From Fimbriimonadales bacterium (lineage in GTDB: Bacteria > Armatimonadota > Fimbriimonadia > Fimbriimonadales > GBS-DC): 64,000 nt of DNA. Positions 27,186 to 34,700 of this stretch are shown in pieces. The position numbers were made by a program, and so were the translations under genes. Numbering within the stretch: position 1 is the stretch's first letter; every line of letters begins with the position of its first letter. The notes beneath the pieces were generated by a model, which searched no databases, had not been told where the DNA came from, and was given only the letters and a program-made list of their open reading frames with translations. The stretch lies in assembly GCA_025998675.1 (NCBI GenBank), contig AP024673.1:248001-312000 (forward strand). The letters are read 5' to 3'.

Positions 27186-28172
27186 TCAATAGCTGGAGGT
27201 AAACATCATCGGACACCTCTGTAAAGACTGGACTATAAACAGTTGTCGTCCTTCCGTATTCTTTTCAACAAACGCTTGTGCAGTGGGGCTATCTATCGCT
27301 GCCAGTGCTTGAAGGCACAGCACGCGCCGTACCTCTATCGCAGCAGCGTCAGTCTTGAACCCTACGGGCTGGCTCAACTCCTTCCACCAGCCAATCAGGA
27401 GTTTCACGGCTATCTCTCCACAGTCAGCTAATGCCTGCAGGTCATAGTACAGCTCCGCTCGGATAGCCGTCGCTGTGCGCAGGCGTGCAAGCAGCCATTC
27501 GGCACGCTCCTGACCCGTTCGCTGACCCAGCTCGGCAATCCAGTTCGCAATCGAGTCGGATTGCCAGTCAGTGCCCATCTCACTCAGCACACGGAACGCC
27601 TCTCGTACGCCCACCGCGTATGCTTCGGACGCCATCTCCGCAAGGAAACGGGTGCAAACCGCCTGATGACGGCTTCGCGCCGTTTCAGAGTCGCCTTCCC
27701 CTATACACTCCTGCAGGAATACGGCAACTTTGCGCTGCCAGTCTTCAGCCGTTCGTACCCGCGGAACCGCAACACCTGCTTTGATACGGGCAATCGCAGG
27801 TATCAGGTAGGGATGGTCTTTCCATTCTGGCTTCGAGCGCAACGCCATCAAATCGGGAAGGCTGCGGGCGTCCTCCAGCCGAGCGAGCGCCAACAGGACA
27901 GCGGTCTGCCAGTGCCAGTAGAACGGTGCTGTGGGGGCTGGCATCGCCACTTTGAGGCTGAATAGGGCGTTCGAGTCTGGCTTTCGCAGCGCGTGCAACG
28001 GCACCTGAAGTTGAGCGCGGTCTTTTCGCACGCCGATCTGTCGGACACGAGCAAGCTCGCAGAGAACCTCGTTTGCCGAATCGTTACCCGGCGCAGCTCC
28101 CTGTGCGCTGCCGATGTATCCAACGGCAACGAGGAGCCATTCCAGTACCATCCACCTCAATCCGCCGTTCAC
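27186..28172 (-). CDS. Secreted HEAT-like repeat protein, paralogue of its neighbour
   Basis: 328 aa, GTG start with GGAGG upstream; ATG 28151 (MVLEWLLVAV) is an alternative. Hydrophobic signal LEWLLVAVGYIGSAQGA. The helical body shares segments with the protein at 28267: AVLLALARLEDARSLPDL, VRTAEDWQRKVAVFL and LADCGEIAVKLLI. The last 20 residues do not match the paralogue and end at the junction with the DUF1553 remnant, so the C terminus may have been replaced. Function unknown; probably a periplasmic binding protein. Confidence 0.65.
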   Translation of the reverse strand: MNGGLRWMVLEWLLVAVGYIGSAQGAAPGNDSANEVLCELARVRQIGVRKDRAQLQVPLHALRKPDSNALFSLKVAMPAPTAPFYWHWQTAVLLALARLEDARSLPDLMALRSKPEWKDHPYLIPAIARIKAGVAVPRVRTAEDWQRKVAVFLQECIGEGDSETARSRHQAVCTRFLAEMASEAYAVGVREAFRVLSEMGTDWQSDSIANWIAELGQRTGQERAEWLLARLRTATAIRAELYYDLQALADCGEIAVKLLIGWWKELSQPVGFKTDAAAIEVRRVLCLQALAAIDSPTAQAFVEKNTEGRQLFIVQSLQRCPMMFTSSY

Positions 28173-28266
28173 CTCATGACTTCCCTCCCATCAACACCCT
28201 TACCAATCTGACGCGCGTAACATCAGAGCGTATCGTTGACCCTCGTTCACTGGCTCGCCTTGCACC

Positions 28267-29424
28267 TCAGAGATAGTCAGGCGCGAAAATCACAACCGAC
28301 GCGCGTCCTGCATGCCTCTGGGCGAGCAACCACTTTGCCTCTTCCGAGAGAGCGCCGCCCGAGCCAGCCAGATTCTCCAGCAGATTTACGCTCTCAGGGG
28401 AGTCTATCACGCTGAGAACCTCAAGCAGCATTCTTTGCTGGAGTATCGTTCGTTCCGACTGCCGAAGGCTCTGGGCGATAATAGGCGCAGCCTTCACGCC
28501 GCAATCTACCAGCGCCTGCATCGCATATCGCTCGCGCATTGTGCGAACCCCTGCGCCCGCCAAAAAGCGCACCAGCCACGAGATACGCTCTGCTTCGGGC
28601 TGTTTGCCAAACTGCACCTTGAACCATAGCCACTCGTCTTTTTCAAGCGCACTCCCCAGCGTCTCAAACGGCTGAAAGGCGTCCCGAACCCCCTGCGCAG
28701 TGGCGTCGGCTGCCATATCTGCCAGCTGGCGCAGGGCAAAAAGCTCGCGCGTAACCAGATACATCTCAGGAAGAGTTACGGTGCGAACCTGCTCTTCATA
28801 CGCCTCCAGAACGCTTGCCCACTGCTCGCGCGGTAAATCAACCGCTTTCCGAAACGCCTGCATCTTCGCTTCCCATTCCGCAGCAGTTTTCACGGTAGGA
28901 AACTGGTTCTCCACCTGAATGCGGGCGATAATCACAGGCAGATAGGTGCGTGCGTTCGCGCTGAGCGTTTGCTGGAACTCTGGGGACTGGAGTGTAGGTA
29001 GTGTCTCAGGGGCAGCCAGTCGCGCCAGTGCAAGCAAAGCCGCTACCTGCAGGTAATGCGCCCCGTGCCGTGTGGTGGGGACACGCCCGGCGGCGCGCAC
29101 CACTTCGGGCTGGAGCGCTTTCAAGACCCACTGCGCCTGACTTCTGTCGCGCTGCAAGCCAATCTGACGGAGACGGTTTATGAGCAACCCGAGTGCTTTC
29201 GCGCGCTCTTCATACAGCAACTCACGATGCGCTGTCTCGCTCGCGTTTGGCAGCGCCATTCTGGGGTCGTCTGAGGAAGTGAGGCGCAGCAGCCGCTGAA
29301 GAGGGTCTTGCTGGTCAATCAAGGCGGGCTCACTTCCTCGACTCTCCTGCTGTGCAGGCAGCTGGGACAGAAGTCCACCCCATCCCAACAGCACAGCCAG
29401 ACTCAGTAATACACGAATGTTCAT
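28267..29424 (-). CDS. Secreted HEAT-like repeat protein
   Basis: 385 aa from ATG 29424, with AGGAGGTG 9 nt upstream; the reading from 29457 adds residues without support. Signal peptide MNIRVLLSLAVLLGWGGLLS followed by QLPAQQ. The rest is helical, with HEAT-like segments (YLQVAALLALARLAAPETLPTL, ALVDCGVKAAPIIAQSL, LLEVLSVIDSPESVNLLENLAG). Related to the next gene downstream. The family is not one I recognise. It probably forms a two- or three-gene unit with the large protein upstream, since only 5 bases separate them. Confidence 0.7.
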   Translation of the reverse strand: MNIRVLLSLAVLLGWGGLLSQLPAQQESRGSEPALIDQQDPLQRLLRLTSSDDPRMALPNASETAHRELLYEERAKALGLLINRLRQIGLQRDRSQAQWVLKALQPEVVRAAGRVPTTRHGAHYLQVAALLALARLAAPETLPTLQSPEFQQTLSANARTYLPVIIARIQVENQFPTVKTAAEWEAKMQAFRKAVDLPREQWASVLEAYEEQVRTVTLPEMYLVTRELFALRQLADMAADATAQGVRDAFQPFETLGSALEKDEWLWFKVQFGKQPEAERISWLVRFLAGAGVRTMRERYAMQALVDCGVKAAPIIAQSLRQSERTILQQRMLLEVLSVIDSPESVNLLENLAGSGGALSEEAKWLLAQRHAGRASVVIFAPDYL

Positions 29425-29429
29425 GTTTT

Positions 29430-31694
29430 TCACCTCCTGATGTGAGAACACTGGCAATCACTGTAGTAAGGTATGGATTGAATCTCTTCGAGTAGATCTG
29501 TACGCAGTACGTAATCAAGTCCAGTAGAGGAGTATCGCCAGGGAAAAGGAGAATGTGGAATGCCTCGTTGTAAACCGCTGTCTGCCCAGTCTAATTCCCA
29601 TAAGCGTTTAGTACCTTTTATTTTTGCGTAAGCAATAATCTCTGCTAACACATCTCCATCTCCATCCGGATCTCCAAAAGGAAAAGAAAATGGAAAAGGA
29701 TAGGCTGCTGACCAACGGTCGCAGGGGTCGAGACCTATTTGTGGCTCTATATCATCAGGTACCGAATCCCAGTCTAGATCGTGATTGTCTTCACCTCGCG
29801 GAACTTGAAGTCCTCTTCGATACAATTCTCTGTGCGCACGTTCGTGTTCAACGAGAGAGATAAACCGATGGATACCCCTAACCCAGAGTAGATCTCTCTC
29901 CAGACCATACCAGCTATGATATGTTGCTTGGGTAATCATGGGGCGCAAACGTCCGCAAGCATCCATCCGTGTTGCCAAGACAAAGAGGTAAACTGTCCAC
30001 TCGCCTCGACTAGGAGAAGCACTATCGGCTATGAACACTCTATCTGAAGATCTACAGTAAAACGACATTTCGCCAGTAATATACTCGATATCACGGCATC
30101 CGTAAGCATCGGAATAGTAGAAAAACCAGTTCGGCGTCTCGGTTCTGACACAAGGGGTGCATGGAGCAGCAGAATTATACACCCACCCTGGCAATCCCCC
30201 AGAAGGATGGTTTTTACTATCAGCAGGATAGAACACCTCCACATCAGCGTAATCCACCTTCCCCTGATTGCTCTCAAACAGAACCCTCTTCTTCCCAAAA
30301 TCCGAATTCTTCGGCGGCAAATATTTAGACCTGTACACCAAGCCGTCTCGCAGATTCTCGTCCACCAGACTCTGTGCCACCAGCAACGAGCCCCGCGCCA
30401 CCGTCTGTACACCTGGCTTGGTGTAGTCCGTTGGTATCTCTGGGTCTGTGCTGAAACACACCTCGCTCGCCAACCACGCCGTGTCAGGATTATCCCATCC
30501 CCAAGTGTGAACCATCGCCGCTGTGTTTATTTCTAACTCTGCCGGAGTAGTTCCGCTCCACACATACTCATTCTCTCCTATCGCGGGCACACCCAGCGGG
30601 TCAGGCTGTACCTGAACAACCAAACCTCCAAACGCGCAAACAAAAGCGCCAGACCCCGCACTGCCACACTCCACTGAAGAACCGTGTGCTGAAATGCTAC
30701 CTGTCATCGCTTCGTCATGACTAACCCGCTCGCTCCGACCAAAATCCACCTGATGTGCCTTGTAGCTTCGCCTCCCCTGACAATCGGGGGGATCACATCT
30801 GAGACCGCTATTGTCACCTCGCTGGGTACAATCCATGCACTCGGAATTGCAGCTACACGAAGCGCTCGCACTCGACGAAACGGAGGCAGAAACCATCGAG
30901 GTCTGGATAGATGCCAATACCCTCGCCGATGCTGAGCTCGAATCACAGCACCCGTCTTCTTGGTAAATGTCCGGTCCGCATCGCACGCCCGCAGCAGCGA
31001 ACGAAGATGCACGAACTCCCTCCACAAAGTACAAAAATCCCAAAGACCGCTTGGGTACATAGCTATAACCCGTTATGCGCAGATCGGGATAGGGCGAGGT
31101 GAACAGAAAGGCGAGATTCGCATCCAAAGAAGCGCCTCCACTCCAGCTGTCGTTGCCGCCGCCACTCACCCCGCCCCCCAAAGTTAGATAGCTCGCGTTG
31201 AGTGTGACGGTTTGGGTTCTTTGACCCTCACAGAGATTCCAAAAAGAACTACAGTAATGATGCTCATAAGGGCAACCCAGCAGAAAACCGCAATCGGGGG
31301 TTCGTCCCATCACCTGCAGCGTGGCTTTCGTATCGCACTGGATGCTCTGCAAACGGCTTTGCGCCCAGCCGCCAATTCCGCAAGCGGCGCAGGCTACAAT
31401 AAGGCAAGCTATCTTGATTATCTTCCACGCCCAGCAGTGCACTCGTACTCTAACCGCAGGGGATTTACGCCCCCCCCCCCCCGCGCTTCCTGTGTCGCCA
31501 CGAAACCCTTGATTATCGCTCCCATCGCTCTCATCGCCATCGCCTCCTGTTTCCGCCGAGGGGCTGCCTGTCCCCTCTACCTCTGTTAACGATTCAAACG
31601 ATTCAAAAGTCCGTTTCGATGGGTCGTACCCGAAAAACGCCACAAAACGCGCCCGCAACTCAGGCAGATACCCGCGCACAGTGCTGGCTTTCAC
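29430..31694 (-). CDS. Large secreted Cys-rich protein with HExxH motif behind a poly-G tract
   Basis: 754-residue reading frame from GTG 31694. Residues 1-40 (VKASTVRGYLPELRARF and on) look like the second half of a sigma-70 region 4 helix-turn-helix. Residues 42-85 are a Gly/Ser/Asp-rich linker whose GGGG is coded by 13 consecutive G. Residues 88-110 are hydrophobic (IIKIACLIVACAACGIGGW), a membrane anchor or late signal peptide. The remainder is exported, cysteine-rich, and includes HERAH at 617-621 in SLVEHERAHRELYRRG, then DLDWDSVPDDIEPQIGLDP, resembling thrombospondin-3 calcium loops. It may be a zinc metalloprotease-like protein; family not recognised. The real start could lie after the G tract. 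More AT-rich than neighbours. Confidence 0.6.
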   Translation of the reverse strand: MKASTVRGYLPELRARFVAFFGYDPSKRTFESFESLTEVEGTGSPSAETGGDGDESDGSDNQGFRGDTGSAGGGGRKSPAVRVRVHCWAWKIIKIACLIVACAACGIGGWAQSRLQSIQCDTKATLQVMGRTPDCGFLLGCPYEHHYCSSFWNLCEGQRTQTVTLNASYLTLGGGVSGGGNDSWSGGASLDANLAFLFTSPYPDLRITGYSYVPKRSLGFLYFVEGVRASSFAAAGVRCGPDIYQEDGCCDSSSASARVLASIQTSMVSASVSSSASASCSCNSECMDCTQRGDNSGLRCDPPDCQGRRSYKAHQVDFGRSERVSHDEAMTGSISAHGSSVECGSAGSGAFVCAFGGLVVQVQPDPLGVPAIGENEYVWSGTTPAELEINTAAMVHTWGWDNPDTAWLASEVCFSTDPEIPTDYTKPGVQTVARGSLLVAQSLVDENLRDGLVYRSKYLPPKNSDFGKKRVLFESNQGKVDYADVEVFYPADSKNHPSGGLPGWVYNSAAPCTPCVRTETPNWFFYYSDAYGCRDIEYITGEMSFYCRSSDRVFIADSASPSRGEWTVYLFVLATRMDACGRLRPMITQATYHSWYGLERDLLWVRGIHRFISLVEHERAHRELYRRGLQVPRGEDNHDLDWDSVPDDIEPQIGLDPCDRWSAAYPFPFSFPFGDPDGDGDVLAEIIAYAKIKGTKRLWELDWADSGLQRGIPHSPFPWRYSSTGLDYVLRTDLLEEIQSIPYYSDCQCSHIRR
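31470..31482 (-). repeat. 13-base homopolymer (poly-G on the coding strand)
   Basis: Thirteen C on the given strand, within the linker of the large island protein. Length changes here by slipped-strand mispairing would switch the reading frame between the helix-turn-helix half and the exported half. Confidence 0.9.
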
Positions 31695-31699
31695 GCCCA

Positions 31700-31809
31700 G
31701 CGCGCGCAGCCTCTTCCCACGAAAGCCCCTGCAAGCGCAACTGCACTACCGTGCGAAGACGCAACGACAACTGCGCCACAAACGCCTCACCGTCTACATT
31801 CCCCTGCAC
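31700..31809 (-). pseudogene. First half of a sigma-70 region 4-like domain, out of frame with its continuation
   Basis: From GTG 31809 the frame reads FVAQLSLRLRTVVQLRLQG and then LSWEEAARA, matching region 4 of ECF-type sigma factors. At the GCGCGCGC run (about 31700-31708) the homology continues as ALGVKASTVRGYLPELRARF in another frame, that of the 31694 gene. Sigma region 2 is absent upstream, where the DUF1553 gene ends at 31830. It appears to be a truncated, frameshifted regulator fragment. Confidence 0.55.
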
Positions 31810-31829: not shown

Positions 31830-34700
31830 TCACTCCCGCGTGATGGTCTCGTCGAGGTTGAGCATCGCGTGGGCGACCATCGTGAGCGCGGCGAGGTGGG
31901 AGTCCTCGTTGCCGACGAGTTTGCGCGTCGCGTCCCGATGGGCGCGATGGCGTTCCAGCATACGCTCATACAGCTGGCGCAGGCGGTTCAGCTCCTGCGG
32001 CTGGGGGTAGCGCGCCGTGCAGCAGCGGAAGCCGTACTGGATGGCTCTCTCCACCGAGCCGCGCCCTGCTTTCTGCATGCGTTGCGCCAACCCCTGCGCC
32101 GCCTCCAGATAGGCGGGGTCGTTCAACAGCACGAGCGCCTGCAGCGGTGTGTTCGTGCGCGGGCGCGTCGCGAGACACACCTCGCGCGAGTGGGCGTCGA
32201 AGGCGACCATCGCGGGGTACGGCGCGGTGCGTCGCCAGAAGGTGTATAGCCCGCGCCGATAGCGGTTCGCGTCCGTGTCGGTAATCCAGCGGTCGGCGTT
32301 GAAGGGGATGTCCCACACGCCTTCAGGCTGCGGCGGGAAGACGCTCGGACCGCCCACCATGCGGTTCAGCAGTCCGCTCGCCGCCAGCGCGCTATCGCGC
32401 ACCAGCTCGGCAGGCAGGCGATAGCGCGGCGCACGCGCATACAGCTTGTTCTCGGGGTCGCGCGCGAGCAGCTCAGGCGTCGCGCGTGAACTCTGCCGAT
32501 AGGTCGCGCTGGTCACGATGAGCCGATAGAGTGCTTTCATGCGCCAGCCGCGCTCCATAAACTCCACCGCGAGCCAGTCGAGCAGTTCGGGGTGCGTGGG
32601 GTACGCGCCCTGCGCGCCGAAGTTGTCCAGCGTCTCCACAATCCCGCGCCCGAAGAGGGTCGCCCACATGCGGTTCACCTGCACGCGCGCGGTGAGCGGG
32701 TTCTCGCGGGCGACCAGCCACTGCGCCAGCCCCAGCCGATTGCGCGGCGCGTCGGCGGGGAACGGGTGCAGCACGGCAGGCGCGCCCGCCTCCACCACTT
32801 CGCCCTGCCGCGTGAACTCGCCGCGCGGGCGCACCACCGCCGTCAGCGGCTGGTCGGTCGGCTTGTCCTCCATCACCAGCGTCGTGGGGATTTGCGACTC
32901 CAGCTGGCGTTTCGCCGCGCGGAGTTCCATCAGGCGCGCCGAGTCGCCGTAGCCCCCGCGGATGCGGAAACAGCCCAGCACATGCTGCGTGTGCCGCTCG
33001 TACAGGCACTCCAGCGTGAGTACGGCTTCGGCAGGCGATTTCAGGCGCAGGGGCTGCTGCAGCAGAAGCGTCAGCGTGTTCGGCTTGCCGATATGCCCGT
33101 CCATCGCCAGCCCGTTCGCGCGATTGTTCGGCTCCAGCACGGCGCGGGGCTGGAAGCCGTTCTGCACGAACTCGGCGAAGGCGTCGCGGAAGGCGACGGG
33201 CTTGCCGTTCACCTGCAGGCGCACGCCCGTCAGCACGAAGTTGCCGTTCGGGGCGCGCCCCGGACCCTGCTGGGGCAGGCTGGGATGCGGCAGGCACTCG
33301 ATTTGAATCAGGCGCAGTTCGCCCGCAGGCAGGCGCAGACGCACGCGATAGACCTCCGTGTCGGGCGTCTGCCCGCGCGCCAGCGCCGCGCCGTCGGGCA
33401 GCGTCGCCACAGGCGCGCCGCTCGCCGTCTCCACCTGATGCGGCGTCAGCGTCGGCAGGGGCGGCAGGGCGCGCCGCTCCAGCGCCTCAATCGCCTGCGT
33501 GAGCGCGTCCAGCTGGCGCTGCTGGTCAGGCGTCGGGGCGGGAATCTGCGCCTCCAGCCACTTCTCCTCACTCACACGCGCGTCGCCAACGGGATAAATC
33601 TTCGAGTTGTTGAAAAACGCCAGCATCTGGTAATACTCGCGCTGCTGGATAGGGTCGTACTTATGGTCATGGCAGCGGGCGCAGTTCATGGTCAGCCCCA
33701 GCCACACAGTCGCGGTCGTGTCCACGCGGTCGTAGAGTTTGTGTTCGTGCGCCTCTGCCTGATCGACCCCGCCCTCCAGATTCTGCATCGTGTTGCGATG
33801 GAAGCCGGTCGCGATGCACTGTGCCAGCGTCGGGTTGGGCAGCAGGTCGCCCGCGAGTTGCTCTATTGTGAACTGGTCGAACGGCATATCGCGGTTGAAC
33901 GCCTCAATCACCCAGTCGCGGTAGCGCCAGATGCTACGGCGCAGGTCTTTCTCAAAGCCGTCGGTGTCGGCGTAGCGGGCGAGGTCTAACCACACCAGCG
34001 CCTGCCGCTCGCCATAGTGCGGCGAGTCCAGCAGTCGGTCTACCAGCCGCTCGTAGGCGTCGGGGCGCGTGTCCTTCAGAAAGGCGTCCACCTCTTCAGG
34101 CGTGGGCGGCAGCCCGATGAGATCGAGGTAGAGTCGTCGGATAAGCGTCTCTTTCGGCGCTTCGGGCGACGGCGACAGCCCCTCCTGCTCCAGCCGATGC
34201 AGGATAAAGGCGTCGATGGGGTTGCGCACCCATGCGCGGTTCTGCACTTCGGGGATGGGCGGTCGCTTGGGCGGCACAAACGCCCAGTGAACCGCGTTCT
34301 CCGCGCCTTCGGGCCAGTGCGCGCCCTCGTTAATCCACTGCTTGATGCGCTCAATCTGCTCGGGGGAGAGGGCGGTCATGCCCTTGGGCATGCGGGGACC
34401 CTCTTCGTCGCTGCTGATGCGCTTGACCAGCAGACTATTGTCGGCGTCGCCGGGGATAATCACGCGCCCGCTGATGCCGCCCTTGAACGCCTCGTCGCGG
34501 TTGGACAGGCGCAGCCCACCCTGACGCCGCTCGGGCCCATGGCAGGGGAAACACGAGGCGCGAAAAATCGGCAGGATCTCCCGCGCGAAGTCCACCTTGC
34601 GCTGCGCGGGCGGCTCTGGCGCGGGCGTACTCCACACCAGCCCACCCAGCGCGAGAGGCAAGCCGACATAACTCAGCCACAGCGCTGATAGCCCACGCAT
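31830..34700 (-). CDS. Planctomycete-type cytochrome c / DUF1549 / DUF1553 (PSD1) protein
   Basis: 956 aa. A hydrophobic start (LSALWLSYVGLPLALGGLVW) acts as a signal or anchor. At residues 40-125 is a PSCyt1 domain with a heme-type CFPCH site and RMPKGMTALSPEQIERIKQWI. DUF1549 follows (NPIDAFILHRLEQEGLSPSP, LPPTPEEVDAFL, CARCHDHKYDPI, a second CxxCH). DUF1553 forms the C-terminal third (VNRMWATLFGRGIV, PRTNTPLQALVLLNDPAYLEAA). Such proteins normally sit beside DUF1501 genes; none is here. Extracytoplasmic, function not established biochemically. Its 3' end is duplicated at 27001. Confidence 0.92.
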   Translation of the reverse strand: MRGLSALWLSYVGLPLALGGLVWSTPAPEPPAQRKVDFAREILPIFRASCFPCHGPERRQGGLRLSNRDEAFKGGISGRVIIPGDADNSLLVKRISSDEEGPRMPKGMTALSPEQIERIKQWINEGAHWPEGAENAVHWAFVPPKRPPIPEVQNRAWVRNPIDAFILHRLEQEGLSPSPEAPKETLIRRLYLDLIGLPPTPEEVDAFLKDTRPDAYERLVDRLLDSPHYGERQALVWLDLARYADTDGFEKDLRRSIWRYRDWVIEAFNRDMPFDQFTIEQLAGDLLPNPTLAQCIATGFHRNTMQNLEGGVDQAEAHEHKLYDRVDTTATVWLGLTMNCARCHDHKYDPIQQREYYQMLAFFNNSKIYPVGDARVSEEKWLEAQIPAPTPDQQRQLDALTQAIEALERRALPPLPTLTPHQVETASGAPVATLPDGAALARGQTPDTEVYRVRLRLPAGELRLIQIECLPHPSLPQQGPGRAPNGNFVLTGVRLQVNGKPVAFRDAFAEFVQNGFQPRAVLEPNNRANGLAMDGHIGKPNTLTLLLQQPLRLKSPAEAVLTLECLYERHTQHVLGCFRIRGGYGDSARLMELRAAKRQLESQIPTTLVMEDKPTDQPLTAVVRPRGEFTRQGEVVEAGAPAVLHPFPADAPRNRLGLAQWLVARENPLTARVQVNRMWATLFGRGIVETLDNFGAQGAYPTHPELLDWLAVEFMERGWRMKALYRLIVTSATYRQSSRATPELLARDPENKLYARAPRYRLPAELVRDSALAASGLLNRMVGGPSVFPPQPEGVWDIPFNADRWITDTDANRYRRGLYTFWRRTAPYPAMVAFDAHSREVCLATRPRTNTPLQALVLLNDPAYLEAAQGLAQRMQKAGRGSVERAIQYGFRCCTARYPQPQELNRLRQLYERMLERHRAHRDATRKLVGNEDSHLAALTMVAHAMLNLDETITRE

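Follow-up and report, generated by a model that had tools for sequence, protein, structure and literature searches.

A poly-G tract at the junction of sigma-factor and exported-protein genes in the Fimbriimonadales: a probable contingency locus of new layout

What is a run of 13 G residues doing inside a long open reading frame of a Fimbriimonadales bacterium? The run lies in a stretch of 64 000 nt ('the window') from a genome that forms one contig of 2.99 Mb. It is found at 31470-31482 as C13 on the forward strand, G13 on the coding (minus) strand, and is the sole run of at least eight G or C in the whole window. As a preliminary description of this DNA had stated, the tract falls inside an open frame; this ORF has 754 codons on the minus strand (31694-29430) and also carries the motif HERAH and the stretch DLDWDSVPDD. 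The features of the locus are collected in Table 1.

Table 1. Features at and around the G tract (window coordinates)
Feature	Position	Strand	Evidence
G13 tract (coding strand)	31470..31482	-	Sequence scan
Exported-protein leader MRAMGAIIKGFVATQEA, in the +1 frame with respect to the sigma tail	31483..31534	-	SD-preceded ATG, phase, continuity in G016
AGGAGG ribosome-binding site, 8 nt before the leader ATG	31543..31548	-	Sequence
ECF sigma gene remnant: region 4 and acidic/Gly-rich tail, frameshift at about 31713	31484..31809	-	Pfam, frames, comparison with G016
PSCyt1-PSCyt2-PSD1 gene, upstream neighbour	31830..34700	-	Pfam; also flanks the orthologous G016 locus
Exported body 3' of the tract, uninterrupted frame of 679 codons plus stop	29430..31469	-	ORF list; relatives
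Hydrophobic segment IIKIACLIVACAACGIG, signal peptide or membrane anchor	31371..31421	-	Read from sequence; hydropathy maximum 2.4
HERAH (HExxH)	29832..29846	-	H, E and H invariant in all six aligned relatives
DLDWDSVPDD, calcium-loop-like stretch, three invariant Asp	29751..29780	-	Alignment of relatives
Exported protein 1 of a paralogous pair behind the HExxH body	28267..29457	-	ORF list; no Pfam match
Exported protein 2 of the paralogous pair	27186..28172	-	ORF list

The preliminary description read a single frame from residues resembling sigma region 4 through to the HERAH body. This holds for the downstream part, but the frame changes at about 31713: VQGNVDGEAF...WEEAARA (31809-31690) is read in one frame and LGVKASTVRGYLPELRARF onward in another, so the ORF contains just the second half of the helix-turn-helix (HTH) of region 4. 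Joined by hand, the two frames match Sigma70_r4_2 in Pfam with an E-value of 4.8e-8. Of regions 2 and 4, both of which were looked for, the window sigma has region 4 alone, split by the frameshift; region 2 is missing, and about 280 nt of coding sequence present in the orthologue of genome G016 are gone. Judged from its sequence, the window sigma gene is a truncated, frameshifted remnant, broken twice.

The two sides of the tract have separate relatives. Among 61 related genomes of the Armatimonadota (the named relatives include HRbin15, JP3_11 and Fimbriimonadales KatS3mg016), those of the sigma tail (residues 1-75) reach no further than the tract, and those of the exported part begin beyond it. 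The orthologous locus in G016 has no tract. Its PSD1 neighbour is 75.7% identical to that of the window at the DNA level and its sigma region 81.6% identical, and the homology breaks off 3 nt before the tract. The G016 sigma has both region 2 and region 4 and is complete; it ends in GCG-TGA, at the position of the window G run. Overlapping its 3' end, an ORF in the +1 frame, MVMRAISKGSVAGQEAR..., follows an AGGAGG and is continuous into an exported body. That body differs from the one in the window and is 72% identical over 380 residues to a body in G004, where it sits behind another sigma (27% identical). By comparison with G016, the exported protein most likely has its natural N-terminus in the +1-frame leader overlapping the sigma 3' end. 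The junction of HTH and exported body, originally described as one protein, is most likely the out-of-phase state of another design, as G016 and the remnant sigma suggest. Relatives that lack the upstream fusion, which had been proposed as evidence against a switch, do exist, and they count against the fusion rather than against the switch.

In the window, the SD-preceded leader begins with an ATG at 31534 and runs for 17 codons into G13. It would be in phase with the body solely at 11 or 14 G; as 13 G leave it out of phase, this copy is probably OFF at its present tract length, until 11 or 14 G are reached. A GTG downstream of the tract may also serve as a start for the exported body. A promoter scan gave a single promoter-like match, on the opposite strand, and a terminator scan gave five terminator-like matches against a shuffle mean of 1.9, somewhat above the shuffles.

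The exported body itself has zero sequence matches in Pfam, NCBIfam or the PDB. The preliminary description took it for a secreted HExxH protein, perhaps with a zinc-protease fold. The motif is conserved in the six aligned relatives, in which one more Asp further on and a WxxDW motif are also invariant, but neither a zincin fold nor a third zinc ligand could be read from the AlphaFold models (mean pLDDT of 27 for the whole body and 43 for its C-terminal part, both of low confidence), and Foldseek found nothing at E 0.001 with them. A zinc protease is therefore plausible but unproven, given the lack of a sequence match and the poor models. The adjoining exported protein of Table 1 is probably in the same operon as the HExxH body. 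The pair to which it belongs (27186-29457) is without Pfam match, and relatives of the pair adjoin HExxH bodies in HRbin15 (L093). A relative of the window body occurs outside the family, in SKYG70 (filed under Abditibacteriales; locus L184), where the leader MDRFAFVTRLA is followed by G10, out of phase (9 or 12 would be needed), with no sigma gene upstream of leader and tract.

Are long G tracts unusual in this genome? A first-order Markov model of the window gives 0.06 expected tracts of at least 13 G per genome. The same model expects 4.4 tracts of at least 10 G and 74 of at least 8 G per genome, against 4 and 19 observed. An excess of long tracts as such is thus ruled out; it is their placement that is unusual. 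All four tracts of at least 10 G are at sigma-factor or exported-protein sites, whereas of the 15 with 8-9 G just one is so placed (Fisher p 0.0013), the site classes being judged by eye from their contexts, without a blinded classifier. Besides the window G13, the four comprise a G11 within an ECF sigma gene and a G11 in a dockerin/Rhs-like exported protein, both out of phase, and a G10, in phase, where a sigma gene and an exported-protein gene overlap.

Related genomes contain many more tracts, and leaders of unrelated exported proteins carry about 9-17 G. An ECF sigma gene lies directly upstream on the same strand, by a home-made sigma profile, at 16 further tract loci (the counts being of fetched loci, with contig-end tracts, some of them clearly artefacts such as the G64 run of L169, set aside). 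Three of the four upstream sigma genes tested passed the Pfam cut-off for Sigma70_r4_2; the fourth was weak. The exported bodies behind the tracts include HExxH, Rhs/DUF6531, PKD, Ig-like, beta-propeller and dockerin domains, and those of groups A and D have the tract and lack the sigma gene. Some relatives (e.g. G010 and G013) have many tracts away from sigma or exported-protein sites. In a loose control drawn from other families of the order, a sigma gene was near none of the nine tracts examined; one of these tracts (L113) came after a signal peptide.

Two other placements recur. A tract of G10-G11 immediately precedes a sigma gene, instead of following its end, in L195, L201 and L219 (G016), L160 (G006), L115 (G008) and L123 (G003). 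In exported proteins of the Rhs/DUF6531 (and dockerin) kind, the tract directly follows the signal peptide, both in the window's own genome (L074, L083) and in relatives (L136, L151, L155-L158, L194); these Rhs/DUF6531 loci have TAAATA(G/C) after the tract, so that both off phases terminate at once.

The lengths of the tracts differ between otherwise near-identical copies. L079 (G10) and L161 (G11), and likewise L150 (G10) and L090 (G11), come from different species and are identical at 200 of 200 positions on both flanks, yet differ in phase; larger differences, G10/G17 and G10/G15, are also found between near-identical flanks. The sister pairs that differ in tract length and frame are the two named together with L153/L142 and L141/L140. 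The quality of the MAGs varies, and assembled homopolymers may be one or two residues too long or too short. Of 28 loci, 10 have leader and body in phase, close to the third expected by chance, and the three phases are about equally frequent at the sigma-overlap loci. An SD-preceded start was found for most leaders of tract loci, and bodies that are out of phase remain open, in L090 over as much as 2.1 kb. Reversible switching would be expected to leave phases random and bodies intact, and slippage at the RNA level would look alike. The earlier proposal of a hypermutable G tract that changes the frame into the exported part is well supported by these comparisons.

One pair, L079 of the window's own genome and L161 of JP3_11, is 98% identical over 2.7 kb in genomes classed as different species; recent transfer is possible. 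At G000:C1:507639-507649 (L067, L102), an out-of-phase G11 separates region 2 from region 4 in an ECF sigma gene, and the orthologue of this gene in G014 (HRbin15; L198) has G9, also out of phase. By our own reading of the frames both orthologues would be intact at G10, so this sigma may itself be switched.

Tracts also mark the borders of modules. Upstream, L145 and L147 are 99.9% identical over 1.5 kb, but their bodies are unrelated; L145 and L146 have bodies in common. L155 and L158 are 95% identical over 1.5 kb from the tract onward, with unrelated upstream parts, and L118, L157 and L158 have a common leader, behind which the L118 body is unrelated. As the tract is the exact point where homology begins or breaks off in several pairs, leaders and bodies look exchanged there. 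The borders may reflect recombination within the tract, or the tract may merely lie at the end of a conserved leader. L145-L148 form an array (G004:C3:319000-342400) of four sigma/exported units in 23 kb, in pairs exactly 5594 nt apart, with two body types behind near-identical sigma genes; it may be a tandem duplication or an effect of assembly.

The pattern is genus-wide, and we consider it probable that the tract is a poly-G contingency (phase-variation) locus of new layout. Ancestrally, an ECF sigma gene would be followed by an exported-protein gene that starts within the sigma 3' end, in the +1 frame and with its own ribosome-binding site. The poly-G would lie just inside the N-terminus of the exported protein, where the sigma tail ends. 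A gain or loss of one or two G by slippage, were it to take place in living populations, would then set what reads into the body, i.e. the leader, the sigma tail or neither, and in this way control expression: with the leader read in, the exported protein would be made, and with the sigma tail read in, a sigma-exported fusion. The tract would at the same time be the border where leader or sigma modules meet different exported bodies. A more ambitious form of the proposal is a three-way switch between sigma that is free alongside a separate exported protein, sigma tethered to the membrane as a fusion, and sigma alone, the tract doubling as a plug-in joint for new exported domains; we regard this as rather doubtful.

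Slippage might instead occur in RNA, by polymerase or ribosome, giving a constant mixture of sigma, fusion and exported protein while tract length is tolerated. Random phases, bodies open in every phase and overlapping frames that would suit programmed frameshifting are all compatible with this. By itself, however, such slippage leaves the hypervariable length of identical copies unexplained, and in G016, free of a tract, the leader is simply in frame; we think the explanation unlikely. We are no more inclined towards decay combined with assembly error, in which the window locus would be a pseudogene and the tract lengths sequencing or assembly noise. The twice-broken sigma gene, the frequency of homopolymer errors in assemblies and the existence of contig-end artefacts would fit, but the bodies are intact, the same sites recur across many independently assembled genomes, differences of 5 to 7 G exceed the usual error and errors would not put long tracts at the starts of exported proteins. 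This account too seems improbable.

The functional product could also be the fusion itself, a sigma/HTH protein joined to a membrane-anchored exported domain, since the fused phase is seen in the window and in L145, L147, L152 and L121. Yet only about one-third of the loci show the fused phase, the window ORF is without region 2 and half of the HTH, the body in G016 is in frame with the leader and not with sigma, and the bodies of groups A and D do without a sigma gene altogether. The fusion as native product was rejected as the main reading on account of G016 and the even spread of phases, and we give it very little credence.

How does the proposed contingency locus compare with known systems? 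In the pilin-type antigenic variation of Neisseria, a constant N-terminal part is joined to variable parts, with G-rich DNA near the joint. The tract loci are alike in these respects; here, however, whole unrelated bodies change at a homopolymer, and the likeness covers no silent-cassette array. The closest precedents for the tract are the homopolymeric contingency loci of Campylobacter (PMC8355987), Neisseria (PMC5084427) and Bordetella (PMC1891110), and Listeria inlA (PMC2831843). Here as in these, genes of surface or exported proteins carry a long homopolymer close to their 5' end, its length changes the frame and both off phases often stop at once. The present hosts differ in being uncultured free-living thermophiles and the loci in that unrelated bodies are joined at the tract, which lies in the overlap of sigma and exported genes and so would allow three outcomes instead of on and off. 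The gene order recalls the SigI-RsgI pairs of Clostridium thermocellum (PMC12203970, PMC4711584), in which several sigma genes each precede a gene whose membrane-anchored or exported product has an outer domain that differs from pair to pair. The sigma here is of ECF type and its frame overlaps that of the exported gene, with a poly-G, and the likeness rests on the genes, not on anti-sigma activity; the N-terminal anti-sigma domain of RsgI is absent from the Pfam matches of the window protein (which has none at all) and of the other exported bodies.

Our literature search found no phase-variable system of ECF sigma and exported protein, nor any mention of phase variation together with Armatimonadetes or Armatimonadota. 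A long-read metagenome of the clade exists (PacBio HiFi, DRA011957; PMC9671151), which would allow variation in tract length to be tested without a culture. The best-documented cases of homopolymer phase variation are in host-associated pathogens. The present case is an apparent multi-locus system in free-living, uncultured, thermophilic (hot-spring) Armatimonadota, tied to ECF sigma genes and to the exchange of exported domains, Rhs-type proteins included.
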